A DNA stretch of 64,000 nucleotides, from NCBI GenBank assembly GCA_027487695.1, contig JAIYDB010000024.1:1-64000 (forward strand), given 5' to 3'. Below, one piece after another: positions 9,309 to 17,484 of the stretch. The notes beneath the pieces are model-generated. The model was not told where the DNA came from, did not search any database, and saw only the letters and a program-made list of their open reading frames with translations. The position numbers and the translations under genes are program-made. Each line of letters opens with the position of its first letter. The stretch's first letter is position 1. Source of the DNA: Cytophagaceae bacterium (GTDB lineage: Bacteria; Bacteroidota; Bacteroidia; Cytophagales; Flexibacteraceae).

Positions 9309-10310
9309 CTATACCGAACCTAGCTCAACAATACCAATAGAAAGTATTTTGGTAGTCACTTCTGGTTCTTTCACAATGCCCTTTATGCGATCTATTAATC
9401 GTTGCGCTGCAACCCGACCTACTTCTAAACCACTGTGGTGCAGGTGTGTTAGAGTAGGCTGCATAAAATAAGGCAGGTTCCCATCGGAAATGGCTATTAC
9501 TTTGCAATCGTTCGGAATGCGAATATTAGCTGCATTTAAAGCAGGATACAATCCGGCGGCAACCTCGTCTGACATACAGAAGAAGGCATCAGGTTTATGG
9601 CGTTGCAATAGAGCTGAACTTGCTGCTTGGCATTGTTGCAGACTGCTAGCAAAAATAGTGGGGGCTTTGTAGGCATCAATTCCGTTATCCGCTAAGGCTT
9701 GCTGAAAGCCCTTATGTCGTTCCTGACTGATGCTTATGTTTCTATTGCCGAACAAACCTGCAATGTTTTTCGCTCCCTTTTCAATAAGGTAAGTAACTGC
9801 TTGGTAGGCAACCTCAAAATCGTTAATCAATACTTGGTCAAAAGTGCTTTGCACTACACTTTTATCGAATAATACCACAGGTATGCCCACTTCTTTCAAT
9901 TCTGAAAGATGGTTAACATCACTACTTTCTGCAGAGAGAGAAAGCAATACCCCTTCCATGGAATGGTCGTGACATACCCTCAGGTTCTGTATTTCTCTTT
10001 CTAATGAATCTTGTGATTGCAATACTAGCAACTGGAATCCTTCTCGGTGCACTACTTCTTCTACCCCTTTAATTACGGAAGGGAAAAAGAACATGGTAAT
10101 TTCAGGAATAATCAAGGCTATCAGGTTGCTCCTACTTCGGCGGAGGTTTACTGCCATAAGGTTAGGATGGTAGTTGAGAGCCTTAGCAACCTGCTTTACT
10201 TGCTCTTTAAGAGAGTCTGAAATATCGGGATGGTCGTTCAGTGCCCTAGAAACCGTAGAAGTGCTTACCCCAATTTGCAAAGAAATATCCTTAATAGTAG
10301 CTCTTTTCAT
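9309..10310 (-). CDS. LacI-family transcriptional regulator of the sugar locus
   Basis: 333 residues. An N-terminal LacI helix-turn-helix (T-I-K-D-I-S-L-Q-I-G-V-S-T-S-T-V-S-R-A-L-N) is followed by the hinge 'NLMAVNLRRSRSNLIALIIPEI' and a periplasmic-binding-protein-type sensor domain (about 60-330). Such regulators bind palindromic operators with a central CG and change affinity when a sugar or sugar phosphate binds. The gene diverges from the TonB receptor-hydrolase-kinase-transporter operon. The intergenic region holds a strong LacI-type palindrome (10574-10611), so it very likely controls that operon. A TACTTTTG element (rightward 10361-10368) lies about 50 nt before its start. Confidence 0.93.
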   Translation of the reverse strand: MKRATIKDISLQIGVSTSTVSRALNDHPDISDSLKEQVKQVAKALNYHPNLMAVNLRRSRSNLIALIIPEITMFFFPSVIKGVEEVVHREGFQLLVLQSQDSLEREIQNLRVCHDHSMEGVLLSLSAESSDVNHLSELKEVGIPVVLFDKSVVQSTFDQVLINDFEVAYQAVTYLIEKGAKNIAGLFGNRNISISQERHKGFQQALADNGIDAYKAPTIFASSLQQCQAASSALLQRHKPDAFFCMSDEVAAGLYPALNAANIRIPNDCKVIAISDGNLPYFMQPTLTHLHHSGLEVGRVAAQRLIDRIKGIVKEPEVTTKILSIGIVELGSV

Positions 10311-10573: not shown

Positions 10574-10611
10574 TGCAATCGTTACCGCAATCGTTTGCGG
10601 GAACGATTGCA
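10574..10611. promoter_or_regulatory. Palindromic operator, probable LacI-family binding site
   Basis: A 38-bp inverted repeat with 16-nt arms (TGCAATCGTTACCGCA and TGCGGGAACGATTGCA) around ATCGTT; 15 of 16 positions pair. Its centre contains CGCAATCGTTTGCG, a near-perfect 14-bp palindrome around CG of the type bound by LacI/PurR-family proteins. AATCGTT occurs three times, twice direct and once inverted. It lies between the divergent LacI-family gene and the receptor operon, about 25 nt upstream of the -33 position of the operon promoter. That placement suits activation or looping as well as repression. Confidence 0.75.
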
Positions 10612-10694: not shown

Positions 10695-13334
10695 ATGAAA
10701 AAACTATTACGCTTTTCACTAGCGCTATCGCTGGTGCTGTGCCTTTCGTTCACATTTGCCCTTGGCCAAGGCAAAATCTCTGGTAAAGTTACCAGCACCA
10801 CAGGCGAGCCTATGAGCTTTTCAGTGGTATATATTGCCAAAACCAATTACGGCGCAACAGTAGATGTTAACGGTAACTTTACCGTGAGTAAAGTTCCTGC
10901 AGGTACCTACAAGCTTACTGCTTCTTATGTAGGGTACAAGAAATCAGTGAAAGAGGTTACCGTAACCGACAACCAAACTACCAATATTGATTTCGTTTTA
11001 GTGGAAGATACTACTACAAACGAAGTAATTATCACGGGTACTATCAACCCTAAAACTGCCTTAGAGTCTAGTATCTCTATTAGTTCTGTAAAGGCAAGTC
11101 AGTTACAAGAAACTGCACCTCGTTCAACGGCTGAAATTCTGCGTTCGGTTCCTGGTATCCGTTCGGAAGCTTCTGCTGGTGAAGGTAACACCAACATTAC
11201 TGTAAGGGGTGTGCCTATTGCTACAGGTGGTTCTAAGTTCTTACAATTACACGAAGATGGTTTGCCAGTGCTTCAGTTCGGTGATATTGCTTTCGCAACT
11301 GCAGATATCTTTATGCGTGCTGATAATACAGTAGCTCGTGTAGAAGCATTGAGAGGTGGTTCTGCTTCTACTTTAGCTAGTAACTCTCCTGCTGGTATCA
11401 TCAACTTCATCAGTAAGAATGGTAATGTTGCTGGTGGTAGTGTGGCTACAACCTTAGGTTTAGATTACAGAAACTTCCGTACCGATTTTGAATATGGTGC
11501 TCCTATCGCTAATGGATGGAATTTCCACTTAGGAGGTTTCTATCGCCAAGGCGATGGTCCTCGCACTACCAACTTTACCTCAAGCAATGGTGGTCAGTTC
11601 AAGGCTAACCTTACTAAGAACTTTGAAAAGGGTTACGCTAGAGTATATTTCAAATTCTTGAATGATAGAACTCCTGCTTATATGCCAATGCCAATGACCG
11701 TAAGCGGCACAAATGCTGACCCTACCTGGGGTTCAGTTGCTGGTTACGATGCATTAAGAGGTGCTTTGCAAAGTCCTTTCTTACTAAATAACATTGGTAC
11801 TGGTGCAGATGGTAACATTCGCAGAAGCAATATTGCCGATGGTATTAACCCAGTTTCTACTGCAATTGGTTCTGAATTGTCTTTCGATTTAGGCGATGGT
11901 TGGAACTTATTGAATCGTAACCGTTTCGCTATGAACAGCGGTTCATTCACAGCACCATTCCCTGCTCAAGTGGGCGATGCTACTGCAGTTGCTAATCAAA
12001 TTGCTGGCGCTGGTGCAAGAATTACTTATGCAAATGGTGCTGCTTTCCCAACTAATGCAAACGGAAACAACTTGTTAATGCGTATGCACTTGTTCGATAC
12101 TAAGTTGAACAATATGAATAACTTCACTAACGATTTGAATGTGAATAAATCGTTTGGTCAAGTAACTGTAAATGCAGGTATTTATAAGGCTTACCAGGCT
12201 ATCGGGATGTCTTGGTTATGGAACAGCTACCTTACTGATGTAAGTGATAAGGGTTCAAGATTAGTAAACGTAACTAATGCCGCTGGCGATACTGCTTATA
12301 CAGATAATGGCGTTTTAGCTTATGGTACTCCTTTCTGGGGTAACCTACACCGCAACTACGATACCCACTACGATATCACTGCCCCTTATGCAGGTTTTGA
12401 ATACAAGCCTACTGAAAAGTTAACGGTTGATGTGAGCACTCGTTACGATATGGGTCGTGTTTATGGTTCTTTCAACGGTGCCAATACCAAACCTTTAGAT
12501 GTAAACGGCGATGGTACCATTTCTTTTGTTGAGCAAAGGGTAAACGTGATGGATAATACTAAGAGCAATCCAGTTAACTACCGTTATGAATACCTATCGT
12601 ACTCTTTAGGTGCTAACTATATCTTAAATGATAAAATGGCAGTATTTGCCAGACATAGTACTGGTGCTCGTGCCAATGCCGATCGTTTATTATTCGGTCC
12701 GTATATCTTAGCAGATGGTTCTGCTGCAGCAGGCTTAAAATCAGACGTCGTAACTCAAACTGAAGTTGGTTACAAAATGCGTAAGAACAACTATACCATT
12801 AACGCAACTGGTTTCTTAGCTTCTGTAGAAGAGCAAAACTTTGAAGCAACTACCCAAAACTCAGTAAACAGAACTTATACTGCTTACGGTTTGGAATTAG
12901 ACGGTACTGCAACTTTCGGTAACTTCAATATCAGAGGTGGTTTAACTTATACCAAGGCTGAAATTAGCAAAGACGAAATCAACAAAACTCAGGTAGGTAA
13001 TACTCCTCGTCGTCAAGCTCCTTACATCTTCCAAATTATGCCTTCATATACTTACAAGAAGCATAGCATTGGTATCAGTGCAATTGGTACAGGCAAGAGC
13101 TACGCTCAGGACGATAACAAGTTAGTGATGCCAGGCTACACTTACTTCAATGCCTTCATTAACTTCGGTTTAACCGAGAAAATGAGTCTTTCAATCAATG
13201 CCAACAACCTATTCAATACCATTGGTGTAACTGAATCTGAGGAAGGTAGCATTACTGAAAACAGCACAAACATTGTTAGAGCACGTTCTATTGCTGGTCG
13301 TACCATTTCGGCAGCATTAAGAATAAGCTTCTAA
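10695..13334 (+). CDS. TonB-dependent receptor for a sugar
   Basis: An 879-residue outer-membrane transporter. Signal peptide 1-24; CarboxypepD-regulatory-like domain about 25-105 (GKISGKVTSTTGEPMSFSVV...); plug domain about 120-235 with 'TAEILRSVPGIRSE' and 'ITVRGVPI'; then a 22-strand-type barrel ending in the strand 'RTISAALRISF' with a terminal Phe. It imports a large or scarce substrate with energy from TonB/ExbBD. Unlike classical SusC it has no SusD lipoprotein gene beside it. The following hydrolase, kinase and transporter suggest an oligosaccharide such as sucrose. It is the first gene of the operon; the next starts 42 nt downstream. Confidence 0.93.
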   Translation: MKKLLRFSLALSLVLCLSFTFALGQGKISGKVTSTTGEPMSFSVVYIAKTNYGATVDVNGNFTVSKVPAGTYKLTASYVGYKKSVKEVTVTDNQTTNIDFVLVEDTTTNEVIITGTINPKTALESSISISSVKASQLQETAPRSTAEILRSVPGIRSEASAGEGNTNITVRGVPIATGGSKFLQLHEDGLPVLQFGDIAFATADIFMRADNTVARVEALRGGSASTLASNSPAGIINFISKNGNVAGGSVATTLGLDYRNFRTDFEYGAPIANGWNFHLGGFYRQGDGPRTTNFTSSNGGQFKANLTKNFEKGYARVYFKFLNDRTPAYMPMPMTVSGTNADPTWGSVAGYDALRGALQSPFLLNNIGTGADGNIRRSNIADGINPVSTAIGSELSFDLGDGWNLLNRNRFAMNSGSFTAPFPAQVGDATAVANQIAGAGARITYANGAAFPTNANGNNLLMRMHLFDTKLNNMNNFTNDLNVNKSFGQVTVNAGIYKAYQAIGMSWLWNSYLTDVSDKGSRLVNVTNAAGDTAYTDNGVLAYGTPFWGNLHRNYDTHYDITAPYAGFEYKPTEKLTVDVSTRYDMGRVYGSFNGANTKPLDVNGDGTISFVEQRVNVMDNTKSNPVNYRYEYLSYSLGANYILNDKMAVFARHSTGARANADRLLFGPYILADGSAAAGLKSDVVTQTEVGYKMRKNNYTINATGFLASVEEQNFEATTQNSVNRTYTAYGLELDGTATFGNFNIRGGLTYTKAEISKDEINKTQVGNTPRRQAPYIFQIMPSYTYKKHSIGISAIGTGKSYAQDDNKLVMPGYTYFNAFINFGLTEKMSLSINANNLFNTIGVTESEEGSITENSTNIVRARSIAGRTISAALRISF

Positions 13335-13376: not shown

Positions 13377-14591
13377 ATGCAAGGTAATACTACCACAAAG
13401 CCATTAATAGTTGAAGCGCAAAAACGTGCTTGGCAAGTACTTGAGGGGTGCATTACTAGCGAAGGTATTTTAGCTTCGCCTGCCAACCACGATAATTACC
13501 GCAGGGTTTGGGCCAGAGATTCTATGATTGCAGGAATTGCTGGACTATTGGGAAATCATAGTTCAGTAATTGAAGCAATGGTGCAATCTGTAATCACTTT
13601 ACAGAAACACCAAGCTGCTAACGGTCAAATACCATCGAATGTGGGAATTGATGCCCCACAAACAGTGAGCTTTGGTTCATTAGCAGGTAGAGTAGATGCT
13701 ACTACGTGGTGGGTAATTGGAGCTTGTTTGCTCATCAGTAACCAAAAGGAATCTGCGCTAAAACAAGCGTTAGCGCAGCCCATTGCAAAAGCCTTCCAAG
13801 TTCTGAAGGATTGGGAAATGAATGGGCGTGGTTTCATTTACACACCACTGGGTGGCAACTGGGCCGATGAATATATTAGCGAAGGCTATAACCTCTATGA
13901 CCAATGCCTACGTTTGTGGGCATTGCGCATAGCGGGTAAAGTATATGAAAATGAACAGTATATAGCAGATGCAGCAGCGTTAACTACCTTAATAGTGAAT
14001 AACTATTATTACCAAGAAGGTAGTAGTAATCATTACCATGCTGTAGCTTACCAAAAGGCGGAACCTAAACCTTATTTCTGGTTTCAGTTTGGTCCGCAAG
14101 GGTATGATACTCGCTTCGATATGGCTGCCAATGCTTTGGTTTTAATGCTAGAGTTGCATCCTGAACCAACCAAATTAGAGGAATATCTGAAAGAATTAGC
14201 CTTAACTCAAGGCAGATGGATGTTACCCGTTTTCTATCCTGTAATTCAAGAAACAGATCCTGAATGGTTTTTATTGGAACGGAATTACAGCTATTCCTTT
14301 AAAAACAAACCGCACCACTTTCATAATGGAGGCTGTTGGCCCGTATTTATGGGTTGGCTAGGATTAGGATTAGCAAAGCACGGATTGCTTGGGGCTACCC
14401 AAAATATGCAAGAGGCTATAAGTGAATCTCTTGCAGCCGAAGAACCACCTTTCAGCTTTCACGAATATTGGGCAGGCGATAACAATGTGCCAGGCGGGGT
14501 AAAACCTTTGGCTTATACTGCCACAGGAGTGGTGTTATTACAAATTGCTACACAATTGAATTGTAATGAAGTTATTAAAAAGCTTTTCTAA
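13377..14591 (+). CDS. GH100-like (neutral invertase-type) glycoside hydrolase
   Basis: A 404-residue protein without signal peptide, so probably cytoplasmic. It has the (alpha/alpha)6-barrel motifs of the alkaline/neutral invertase family: R-V-W-A-R-D at 43-48; A-G-R-V-D-A-T-T-W-W at 103-112, where Asp108 aligns with the catalytic acid of the 'VDSxxWW' motif; H-N-G-G-C-W-P at 316-322; and F-H-E-Y-W near 361-365, with Glu363 the likely second carboxylate. Such enzymes hydrolyse sucrose to glucose and fructose. Automated annotation often calls relatives amylo-alpha-1,6-glucosidase, so another alpha-glucoside is possible. Its stop overlaps the next start (TAATG), implying translational coupling. 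Confidence 0.75.
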   Translation: MQGNTTTKPLIVEAQKRAWQVLEGCITSEGILASPANHDNYRRVWARDSMIAGIAGLLGNHSSVIEAMVQSVITLQKHQAANGQIPSNVGIDAPQTVSFGSLAGRVDATTWWVIGACLLISNQKESALKQALAQPIAKAFQVLKDWEMNGRGFIYTPLGGNWADEYISEGYNLYDQCLRLWALRIAGKVYENEQYIADAAALTTLIVNNYYYQEGSSNHYHAVAYQKAEPKPYFWFQFGPQGYDTRFDMAANALVLMLELHPEPTKLEEYLKELALTQGRWMLPVFYPVIQETDPEWFLLERNYSYSFKNKPHHFHNGGCWPVFMGWLGLGLAKHGLLGATQNMQEAISESLAAEEPPFSFHEYWAGDNNVPGGVKPLAYTATGVVLLQIATQLNCNEVIKKLF

Positions 14592-15232
14592 TGACTAATG
14601 AAAGCATACTTCTGAAACCTGCCTATTTGGAATTGGGCAAAAATTTGAGCGATATTATATTAGCTAATCAGGAATTACCTAATCATAAAGTTGTTATTTC
14701 GATAGCGGGCGAATCGGGCAGTGGGAAATCGGTAACAGCGAAAGCTTTGCAAGCAGCCTTATTAGAAAATCGTATTGAAAGCGAAATGCTTTCGATGGAT
14801 AATTACTTTAAGTTACCACCAAAAGTAAATCATTTGGCAAGGATGAGTAATATAAGCCAAGTAGGACCACAAGAAGTTAATTTAGAATTATTGCAATTAC
14901 ATATCAATTCATTTAAAGAAGGAATAAATACACTTTCGCTTCCGCTTACAAACTACACTACCGATAGTTTCGATATACAAGAACATTCATTTCAAAATGC
15001 TCAAGTTTTAATTATTGAAGGTACTTATGTATTTACTTTACGAAATACAGATTTCAATATATTTATCAATAGAACCTACCACCAAACAAAGACTGCAAGA
15101 GCGGAACGTAACAGAGATATAATGACCGATTTTGTGGAGCAAGTACTTGAAATAGAACACCATATCATTAAAAAGGGAGCTGAAAAAGCTAACTTGATTA
15201 TTGATTCCAATTACCAAATACACCAACGATAA
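14591..15232 (+). CDS. Uridine kinase/PRK-superfamily P-loop kinase, probable sugar kinase
   Basis: A 213-residue cytoplasmic P-loop kinase. Walker A is G-E-S-G-S-G-K-S at 40-47. The 'LSMDNYFKLPP' segment places Asp70 where uridine kinases carry the catalytic Asp-Asp/Asp-Asn-Tyr. The strand 'VLIIEGTYVF' (139-148) is the Walker-B-like region, and R-A-E-R-N-R-D (170-176) is the lid motif. The family includes uridine kinase, phosphoribulokinase, pantothenate kinase and other small-molecule kinases. Its position between an invertase-like hydrolase and a sugar transporter, with one-base overlaps on both sides, suggests that it phosphorylates the released hexose. That is inference; a nucleoside substrate is not excluded. 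Confidence 0.82.
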   Translation: MTNESILLKPAYLELGKNLSDIILANQELPNHKVVISIAGESGSGKSVTAKALQAALLENRIESEMLSMDNYFKLPPKVNHLARMSNISQVGPQEVNLELLQLHINSFKEGINTLSLPLTNYTTDSFDIQEHSFQNAQVLIIEGTYVFTLRNTDFNIFINRTYHQTKTARAERNRDIMTDFVEQVLEIEHHIIKKGAEKANLIIDSNYQIHQR

Positions 15233-16539
15233 TGCAAAAACCGAAGTTAAAATTTTGGCAAATCTGGAACATGAGTTTCGGGTTTCTAGGAATACAGTAT
15301 GCCTTTGGTTTACAGCAAGCCAATATGAGCCCTATTTATCGTTACCTAGGTGCCGAAGAATCTGAAATACCGTGGTTGTGGTTGGCAGGACCTATCACGG
15401 GCTTATTGATACAGCCTGTAATTGGTGCAATGAGCGATAAAACCTGGAACAAGAAATGGGGACGCAGACGTCCGTATTTTGCAATTGGCGCTATTCTAAC
15501 CAGTATAGCCTTGGTGCTAATGCCTTATTCTACTTCGTTATGGATGGCCGCCTCGTTATTATGGTTGTTAGATGGTGCGGCTAACGTAACTATGGAGCCA
15601 TTCCGCGCCCTTATTGCAGATAAACTACCCGATGAACAGCGTAGTATTGGCTACTCTCTACAAAGCTTTTTTGTAGGGGCTGGGCAAACCCTTGCCAATT
15701 TAATGCCTATTGTGCTAGCCTCGTTTGGGGTGGCAACAGTTGCAGGAGCTAATAGTCACGATATTCCAGACTTTGTGAAATGGTCCTTCTTTATAGGAGC
15801 TGCCTCTATATTAGTTTCTATAGGGATTACCGTTTTCACCACCACCGAATACCCTCCAACACCTGAAGAATTAGAAGAACAAAAGGCAGAGAAAAGACCG
15901 ATCTTTACTGATATCCTTGAGTCGTTCAAGAGTATGCCTAAAGCCATGAAGCAATTATGGTGGGTGAAATTCTTTACTTGGTATAGCCTGCCCTTGATGT
16001 GGCAATACTTAGCTATAGCCATTGCATTCAGGGTATTCCATACCAGCGACCCTACTTCATCAGGCTTTGCAGAAGGTGTAAAATGGGGCAACATAGGCTT
16101 AGCAGTATTCAATGTATTTTGCTTATTGTTTTCTGTTTTATTACCCGAATTGAGCAGGAAGTTTCAGCCTAAATATGTGCATGCCTTGGCATTAACTACG
16201 GGTGGCATTGGCTTTATAGCCATGAATTTCTTTACCCACCAATACCAGTATATGGGAGGAATGGCGTTAGTAGGAATAGCTTGGGCATCAATCATGAGTA
16301 CCCCGTATGTGATTCTTTCCAATGGTGTACCTCCAAAGAAAATGGGTGTGTATATGGGTATATTCAATATGTTTATCGTAGTGCCACAAATTGCCAATAT
16401 GGTGAGCATACCATTCATATATAACAGTCTTTTAGGAGGCGATCCTGCGCATGCGCTTGTGTTGGCTGGCTTTGGTTTGGTGGTAGCTGCTTACTTCAGT
16501 ACAAGACTTAGAGCCCACCACGAAGTGTTTAAAAGTTAA
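15232..16539 (+). CDS. SLC45/GPH-type sugar transporter (MFS)
   Basis: A 435-residue inner-membrane protein with about 12 predicted helices. The N-terminal part (KFWQIWNMSFGFLGIQYAFG, then Y-R-Y-L-G-A) and the motif 'GPITGLLIQPVIGAMSDKTW' with 'GRRRPYFAIG' after it are characteristic of the sucrose/maltose:H+ symporter family SLC45 and its bacterial relatives. It would carry the intact disaccharide from the periplasm to the cytoplasmic hydrolase. It is the last gene of the operon, its ATG overlapping the kinase stop by one base. No clear terminator follows. Confidence 0.9.
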   Translation: MQKPKLKFWQIWNMSFGFLGIQYAFGLQQANMSPIYRYLGAEESEIPWLWLAGPITGLLIQPVIGAMSDKTWNKKWGRRRPYFAIGAILTSIALVLMPYSTSLWMAASLLWLLDGAANVTMEPFRALIADKLPDEQRSIGYSLQSFFVGAGQTLANLMPIVLASFGVATVAGANSHDIPDFVKWSFFIGAASILVSIGITVFTTTEYPPTPEELEEQKAEKRPIFTDILESFKSMPKAMKQLWWVKFFTWYSLPLMWQYLAIAIAFRVFHTSDPTSSGFAEGVKWGNIGLAVFNVFCLLFSVLLPELSRKFQPKYVHALALTTGGIGFIAMNFFTHQYQYMGGMALVGIAWASIMSTPYVILSNGVPPKKMGVYMGIFNMFIVVPQIANMVSIPFIYNSLLGGDPAHALVLAGFGLVVAAYFSTRLRAHHEVFKS

Positions 16540-16707: not shown

Positions 16708-17484
16708 ATGTCTTTTTTCAAAATGAAACTTAGTAAACTAACTATAATTACCCTTTTAGCAGCTTTTTGCCTGATTTTTCAAGCAAATGTAAGTACTGCC
16801 CAGTCCCTAATTGTAGGGATACCTTCCGCAACCGTTGCCCATAAAGGACACTTTGAAATCACTCACGAATCGCAAGTGAATAGGTGGAGTCAGAATAAAT
16901 TACGTTGGAATTCCTTTAGCTTCTTATGCTACGGAGTAAATAAGAAATTAGAGTTAACTGCATCTTTAAGTAACCTGAACAATCAAGGTATTCAGAATGT
17001 GACAACTGGTGCAGGTTTTAAATTTGTGCAACCTTTGGTAGATAGTTCAAGCGGCTTAAAGGCTTGGGAGCCAAAATGGGTATTAGGCTCAAATGCCTTG
17101 TATTCAATTAGCAGAAACACACTCGGAGGTTGGGTTTATACAATGGGTAGCTTCCGATTGCCTAAGTTAAAAACCAGACTTACAGGTGGGGTTAGTTATG
17201 CCACCTCTGAGTTATATGGACACAGATATAGGTTTATGCAAGAAACCCAAATGCTATCGGTTAATCCCGTTCGCAAGGCTACTTTGCTTTGTGGCGTTGA
17301 GCAACCTATTACCAAGCACTTTTCTGTAATTGCTGATTATTTTAGCGGTTCTCACGATTTAGCAGCCCTCATTATGGCAGTTCAGTACGAAACGGAAAAT
17401 AACGTGTTTATTCTAGGCTACAAACTCCCTAACGAAACGCAGGAAACCGATGCAATTGTAATTGAAGTAATGCATAGGTTCTAA
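16708..17484 (+). CDS. Exported protein of unknown function, probable outer-membrane barrel
   Basis: I do not recognise a named family. The 258-residue product has a signal peptide (to about residue 31, VSTAQS). An in-frame ATG five codons in (16723, MKLSKLTI) is an equally good start. The mature part alternates short polar turns with amphipathic strands (for example 'GHFEITHESQVNR', 'KKLELTASLSNLNNQG', 'NNVFILGYKLP') and ends in a strand with a C-terminal Phe, as in outer-membrane beta-barrels. It is monocistronic, with its own promoter and a bidirectional terminator. The substrate or role cannot be inferred. Confidence 0.8.
   Translation: MSFFKMKLSKLTIITLLAAFCLIFQANVSTAQSLIVGIPSATVAHKGHFEITHESQVNRWSQNKLRWNSFSFLCYGVNKKLELTASLSNLNNQGIQNVTTGAGFKFVQPLVDSSSGLKAWEPKWVLGSNALYSISRNTLGGWVYTMGSFRLPKLKTRLTGGVSYATSELYGHRYRFMQETQMLSVNPVRKATLLCGVEQPITKHFSVIADYFSGSHDLAALIMAVQYETENNVFILGYKLPNETQETDAIVIEVMHRF

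Follow-up and report, generated by a model that had tools for sequence, protein, structure and literature searches.

What does a kinase with a uridine-kinase-like fold phosphorylate in the middle of a sugar operon? In a 64,000-nt stretch of DNA, which we call the window, such a kinase (K; Table 1) is encoded between a glycoside hydrolase and a transporter, and a reading of the sequence alone had placed it where a hexokinase would be expected, as a possible sugar kinase of a different fold. We consider it probable that K is a stand-alone sucrose kinase of the AgaSK family, which phosphorylates sucrose before the GH100-like hydrolase encoded beside it splits the resulting phosphosucrose.

The operon and the fold of K

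The operon is preceded by a divergent gene for a LacI-family regulator and a perfect palindrome, after which come the genes for a TonB receptor, the GH100-like hydrolase, K and a SUC-like symporter; K overlaps each neighbor by a single base (TAATG at both joints). The position between a hydrolase and a transporter is therefore confirmed, the former being GH100-like and the latter SUC-like. The transporter scores 110 bits against TIGR01301, below the cut-off of 511, and resembles the plant SUC-type sugar:H+ symporters, with SUC1 as its best PDB match; on this likeness we propose that it may carry sucrose.

Two further observations concern the flanks. The LacI-TonB intergenic region holds an additional half-site together with the LacI-type palindrome (10575-10610), and several relatives carry related CAAACGTTTG palindromes at the same position. 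Past the operon, an ORF of 258 aa (16708-17484) has no Pfam or NCBIfam match.

Table 1. Features of the operon and of K (positions in the window)
Feature	Position	Strand	Basis or remark
LacI-family regulator, divergent	9309..10310	-	Pfam/NCBIfam; found in relatives
Perfect palindrome GCAATCGTT-N6-AACGATTGC, putative operator, between LacI and TonB genes	10587..10610		0 expected (100 shuffles)
TonB-dependent outer-membrane receptor, putative outer-membrane sucrose importer	10695..13334	+	family match; found in K and PfkB loci
GH100-like glycoside hydrolase, 404 aa, putative sucrose-6-phosphate hydrolase (or invertase)	13377..14591	+	PF12899
K, PRK/uridine-kinase fold, stand-alone, putative ATP:sucrose kinase	14591..15232	+	213 aa, intact ORF
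K, Walker A GESGSGKS, residues 40-47	14708..14731	+	translation; conserved in alignments A1 and A5
K, residues 70-80 (D70, Y72, P77, N80)	14798..14830	+	alignment
K, lid RAERNRD, residues 170-176	15098..15118	+	alignment
MFS transporter, SUC/SLC45 type, putative sucrose symporter	15232..16539	+	TIGR01301, PDB match SUC1

K matches the PRK/uridine kinase family PF00485 at 46.1 bits (cut-off 22), and its AlphaFold model (mean pLDDT 92.1) takes the PRK/uridine-kinase/pantothenate-kinase fold on structure alignment, which together bear out the earlier description of a PRK/uridine-kinase-fold P-loop kinase; the Walker A and the lid are both present, as had been read. PDB structures matching the model include pantothenate kinases (Z about 20), 1rz3 (19.4), uridine kinase 3asy (17.3) and also phosphoribulokinases. 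Among Pfam matches up to an E of 1, neither the ROK (PF00480) nor the PfkB (PF00294) family matches K, and kinship with these sugar kinases was rejected. In NCBIfam, K scores highest against uridine kinase models, reaching 55-56 bits where the cut-offs are 180 and 220.

Kinship with the AgaSK sucrose-kinase domain

When K was searched by tblastn against plasmids, two matches were obtained, one in Gemmatirosa (43% identity) and one in Agathobacter rectalis (25%). The latter covers residues 750-946 of a 946-residue protein, the C-terminal domain of an AgaSK-type alpha-galactosidase, and a gtfA gene comes next. AgaSK of Ruminococcus gnavus combines an alpha-galactosidase and a sucrose kinase in one protein; its kinase domain, taken alone, phosphorylates sucrose with a Km of 1.0 mM and a kcat of 2.4 per s, and a separate kinase gene is mentioned for one Clostridium (PMC7688924, cited, like the other papers below, from excerpts). 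Sucrose-kinase activity in the PRK fold is thus already known, and we refer to this type of domain (UniProt G4T4R7 according to an excerpt of PMC7688924), a P-loop kinase of about 215 aa like K, as SK.

Several comparisons place K beside SK. The AgaSK domain, searched against the Chryseobacterium taeanense genome, found K as its best match (6e-16), the sole other match lying at 2.8e-7. A profile of six K's scored the main K group at 179-341 bits, the AgaSK domain at 92 and canonical uridine kinases (Udk) at 32-56. In a tree of 79 rows K and SK formed neighboring groups that stood together, with nine canonical Udk sequences apart (support 100/100), and the window K clustered with two relatives from its own family (99/97). 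Eight columns (P77, N80, R84, G92, E95, T166, R175 and E189) show a conservation across K and SK that does not extend to Udk; P77 and N80 are invariant across 35 K and 17 SK rows and different in the nine Udk rows, and R170, R173 and R175 of the lid are invariant across the same K and SK rows. Given that the tree contains long branches that meet, of which the program warned, the placement rests jointly on the tree, the reciprocal Chryseobacterium match and the eight shared columns. K is nearer to SK than to canonical Udk, although its identity to SK is 25%, a value that itself weighs against the sucrose-kinase reading.

Like SK, K belongs to a sucrose operon and has relatives with a phosphorylase partner. 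It differs from SK in being a separate gene and in its setting, a Gram-negative operon with TonB and MFS genes, where a GH100-like hydrolase stands in place of a GH36 enzyme and the phosphorylase. That phosphorylase is sucrose 6F-phosphate phosphorylase (SPP, GH13_18), of which two types are known, a strict one marked by the motif KxxYYQ and another marked by GFDVHQ (motif meanings from excerpts of PMC7178133 and PMC6720575). RgSPP, which adjoins AgaSK, is reported to accept only the fructose-6 ester (PMC6521584, PMC7688924), and the locus link between AgaSK and SPP is already in print (PMC6521584, PMC7178133).

This link recurs in every Lachnospiraceae SK locus examined. In 200 genomes of that one family, chosen as the family of locus L089, 17 had an SK match, and SPP was adjacent or fused in all 16 loci examined (G888 was left out), with SK and SPP forming a single ORF in three (L159, L166, L169). 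Fourteen of the 16 loci show KxxYYQ; in L158 the YYQ is present and the lysine at that place is not, and L159 is truncated. Since a strict phosphorylase would be useless without phosphosucrose, the adjoining kinases are its obvious source.

SPP also stands beside K itself. Locus L060 has the operon of the window with SPP in place of GH100, and this phosphorylase has strict SPP 6s9u as its best PDB match (679 bits, all other PDB sequences scoring 299 or less), the KxxYYQ motif, and aligned equivalents of Arg152, Lys364, Tyr377 and Lys434, residues to which the affinity for fructose 6-phosphate is reported to be partly due (PMC6720575, PMC7178133). The phosphorylase of L082 is without KxxYYQ and belongs to the other type (best PDB match 6s9v, 706 bits; GFDVHQ), and that of L071 is a partial KxxYYQ-type SPP; the phosphorylases of L071 (265 aa) and L081 (92 aa) end at contig or frame ends, before a readable loop-A motif. 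In the 79-row tree the K of L060 nests with K's that are linked or fused to GH100 (L144, L063, L064; support 98/94), which suggests that SPP and GH100 partners draw on a single kinase product. While the phosphosucrose consumers are seen beside relatives and the partner of the window K is the GH100-like hydrolase, it is on this nesting that we carry the phosphosucrose inference over to the window K.

The GH100-like partner and the exchange of K with PfkB

A GH100-like gene lies directly upstream in the four closest K homologues from outside the genome (phylum scan) and in Gemmatirosa, which argues that the adjacency is not due to chance. Two genomes from the window's own family (G398, G401) have the same operon, with identities of 69% for the TonB receptor, 52% for the hydrolase, 50-51% for K and 72% for the transporter.

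With the GH100-like alignment as query we scanned 395 genomes of the phylum, and 18 had a hydrolase at E<=1e-20, 14 of them at about 1e-101 or better. K adjoins the hydrolase in five of these 14 (G000, the window's assembly, G095, G118, G254, G372), a PfkB kinase does so in seven (G068, G339, G343, G300, G138 and G080, and fused in G231), and neither does in two (G274, G388); the 12 genomes with an adjacent kinase therefore divide into five with K, seven with PfkB and none with both. Three of the four genomes with weaker hydrolases were without a K match in the stretches fetched, G016 having been left out. In a class scan, also of 395 genomes and partly overlapping the first set, K occurred in six genomes and the hydrolase in 11. 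Both occurred in five, so that the co-occurrence with the GH100-like gene, which the sequence-only reading had named as a check, holds for five of the six K genomes. PfkB occupies the slot in all six genomes that had the hydrolase and no K, and the sixth K genome (G470, stretch L142) has a phosphorylase instead of the hydrolase, with genes as in L060.

A wider comparison gave the same exchange. Among relatives with a GH100-like gene and a sugar transporter, PfkB comes right after the hydrolase in nine loci and is fused to it in one more (L102-L107, L109 and L139-L141, the fused one being L109), K takes the slot after the hydrolase in 19 K-linked loci of the hydrolase comparison set, and two loci (L108, L110) have no kinase beside the hydrolase among the neighbors scanned. 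TonB receptors recur in K and PfkB loci alike, and LacI regulators are present in relatives too. The sugar-kinase slot supposed in the sequence-only reading is thus real as a slot. The PfkB kinases share with K the slot and the GH100-like partner, but their fold is unrelated and they presumably act on freed hexose. Five of them, scanned against the fructokinase model PRK09434, scored 112-129 bits with a cut-off of 450 (it was the top-ranked model for one of them and the runner-up for the other four), and we therefore rejected treating them as proven fructokinases. The natural hydrolase-PfkB fusion at L109:7028-9187 is a counterpart of the GH100-K fusions.

That K alternates with PfkB as a plain fructokinase might, the two never occurring together in the GH100-like loci examined, speaks against our reading and for an alternative in which K is a PRK-fold fructokinase or glucokinase, a non-orthologous replacement of PfkB, and the GH100-like enzyme splits sucrose first. 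The hydrolase itself bears on the choice. It matches PF12899 at 38.8 bits (cut-off 23.6) and has no signal peptide evident by eye; its D164 and E363 are invariant in 21 rows and align with an Asp and a Glu of 5goo, the InvA comparison in which we take these to be the catalytic residues. Its model lies nearest to true invertases (6ttj, Z 40.5; 5z74, the InvB-sucrose complex, Z 39.5), and it has in common with the GH100 alkaline/neutral invertases (InvA, InvB, Arabidopsis Inv2) the fold (Z 39-40) and the conserved Asp and Glu, while identity to them is just 19-20%. When 18 K-type rows (17 K-linked hydrolases and L110) were compared with 10 PfkB-linked hydrolases for a phosphate pocket, 10 columns discriminated between the groups and no basic residue was gained across the K group; the hydrolases of two K-linked loci (L068, L079) fall with the PfkB-linked ones. 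K309, an Arg in the comparison, was ruled out as a phosphate contact since InvA and InvB align a Lys there too. That no pocket was found is a negative result that counts against our reading.

Invertase-like model, missing phosphate site and alternation with PfkB together make a fructokinase conceivable, and the PRK-fold protein 3c8u, annotated as a 'putative fructose transport system kinase' and matched by the K model at Z 18.1, offers a precedent in name. We nevertheless regard it as unlikely, given that the AgaSK domain phosphorylates sucrose, that the SPPs beside K relatives would be left with no evident source of phosphosucrose, and that the K of L060 is nested among GH100-linked K's. Kinship with AgaSK and the slot in a sugar operon thus support the earlier notion of a sugar kinase of a different fold; the expectation of a fructokinase or glucokinase in the place of a hexokinase is probably wrong, since the AgaSK domain, the neighbors that consume sucrose 6F-phosphate (both SPP types) and the fusions point to a disaccharide substrate.

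The proposed pathway and the wider K family

For the sucrose kinase that we favor, we infer the substrate of K, the position of the phosphate and the substrate of the GH100-like protein as follows. Sucrose would be taken up by way of the TonB receptor and then the SUC-like symporter; K would use ATP to phosphorylate it in the cytoplasm, the fructosyl C6 being the likeliest position, and the GH100-like hydrolase would split the resulting sucrose 6-phosphate to glucose and fructose 6-phosphate. The released glucose could be phosphorylated by the three ROK kinases found in a scan of the window's genome, which could provide hexokinase activity under any of the readings. The order in K loci would thus be 'phosphorylate, then split' and that in the PfkB sister loci 'split, then phosphorylate', with an equal net result and ATP cost. 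The AgaSK product is reported to be phosphorylated on C6 of glucose (excerpt of PMC7688924); the gene context favors the fructose-6 ester over that position.

Phosphorylated sucrose is also what is split in the familiar phosphotransferase (PTS) pathway, in which ScrA takes up sucrose and the GH32 enzyme ScrB is the sucrose-6-phosphate hydrolase. The pathway proposed for K differs in that ATP would supply the phosphate once sucrose is inside the cell and the hydrolase would be of GH100, and no PTS EIIC scored over the family cut-off in the window's genome. If true, this would be a little-known mode of sucrose use, in which phosphate is added to intact sucrose before splitting; it would add a sucrose pathway for Gram-negative bacteria without a sucrose PTS, predict a new GH100 specificity, that of a sucrose-6-phosphate hydrolase, and correct the annotation of K relatives, which score best to 'uridine kinase' models. 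As far as our searches show, the GH100 partnership, the exchange of K with PfkB, the Bacteroidota form and the breadth of the family are new: in open-licence papers, searched by titles and the starts of abstracts, we found neither a stand-alone Bacteroidota sucrose kinase nor a GH100 enzyme with a kinase.

How far such a pathway might extend can be gauged from a contig scan that gave 30 loci from many phyla, two of which were set aside (L086 is a K piece cut at a contig end, L089 is not K). Of the remaining 28, 10 have a GH100-like gene as direct neighbor or fusion partner (the latter in L063, L064 and L068), four a GH13_18 phosphorylase (L060, L071, L081, L082) and eight a GT4 neighbor; in three (L075, L076, L088) the neighbors are proteins of about 690-760 aa that are homologous to one another and, where scanned, gave no Pfam or NCBIfam match, two have trehalose or GH65 genes (L084, L085), and one (L080) has nothing recognized. 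Six of the GT4 neighbors are near full-length sucrose-phosphate-synthase matches below the cut-off: those of L067, L069, L073 and L074 reach 240-288 bits (cut-off 576), and those of L083 and L077 score better to the MshA model. The other two (L070, L078) are weak. Their assignment as sucrose-phosphate synthases was rejected, only L071 passing NCBI's cut-off, and we take these neighbors as supporting context at most. In L071 (311-4079; Magnetococcales) a sucrose-phosphate synthase-phosphatase over NCBI's cut-offs is followed by K and then SPP, which would set sucrose synthesis and recycling side by side.

Somewhat more tentatively, as a reading to which we give slightly less than even odds, K may represent a widespread PTS-free pathway in which an ATP:sucrose 6F-kinase acts first and the consumer depends on the lineage, being one of the two phosphorylase types, perhaps a reversed sucrose-phosphate synthase, or a GH100 enzyme specific for sucrose 6-phosphate. 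The GH100 enzymes of Bacteroidota and Gemmatimonadota would then be the first with that specificity, and the wider family would consist of kinases of non-reducing disaccharides with a trehalose-linked branch. Given that the origin of sucrose 6F-phosphate is left open in a review of GH13_18 phosphorylases (excerpt of PMC7178133), stand-alone sucrose kinases beside both SPP types would answer where it comes from, and the natural GH100-kinase and kinase-phosphorylase fusions are ready-made test enzymes.

The proteins adjoining K at L075:6723-8801, L076:8635-10728 and L088:8357-10630, from two spirochaetes and one acidimicrobial genome, are 43-53% identical to one another and by eye look like a diverged GH13 enzyme. 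Trehalose-related neighbors occur on a distant branch of the family: a 944-aa ORF from Kiritimatiellae (L085:4832-7666) joins a K-like kinase to OtsA (GT20) and OtsB (trehalose phosphatase), possibly as a trehalose- or glucose-kinase fusion, and in Neomarinimicrobiota (L084:4623-8639) the neighbors of a K-like kinase are SSF symporters and a phosphorylase in which HAD and GH65 are fused. These two loci, together with a trehalase gene near a K relative in L036, would suit a K that phosphorylates some other disaccharide, such as trehalose or a sucrose analogue, with the GH100-like protein hydrolyzing the resulting phosphate ester; given that the L084/L085 branch is long, separate and without N80, R170 and R175, and that the operon has a SUC-like transporter and a GH100-like hydrolase, we think this quite improbable.

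Most improbable of all is that a sugar operon has captured the uridine kinase of the organism and that K is this enzyme: K is the sole PF00485 protein in its genome and shares with Udk the fold, the Walker A and the Asp and Tyr after strand 2, but it scores 55.1 bits to TIGR00235, a quarter of the cut-off of 220.3, is without the ERG-type lid motif (ERGYD in Udk), lies outside the Udk clade (100/100) and in a sugar operon, and the own-family genomes G398 and G401 have a canonical udk in addition to the same operon. No canonical uridine kinase was found in the window's assembly, while a PF00485 match at E<=2e-30 was obtained for 21 of 23 other relatives; at 96% completeness, the assembly may simply have missed its udk.

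The sequence-only reading had held that frequent homologues outside sugar loci would tell against a sugar kinase. Such homologues are indeed frequent (24 of 35 K-matching genomes), but all belong to one distant branch, family f19, at 28-34% identity and separate in the tree at 100/100. Its genomes are of 2-3 Mb and often carry two K-like copies (L040, L043, L045 and others); no GH100-like or transporter match was present in the 14 stretches fetched, and the neighbors in the five stretches annotated are menaquinone, DUF4403, nucleotidase, uroporphyrinogen, NrfD and histidine-kinase genes, or unmatched. Residues 80, 170 and 175 are Arg, Gln and Lys in f19, and this difference from K suggests that the branch probably acts on another substrate.
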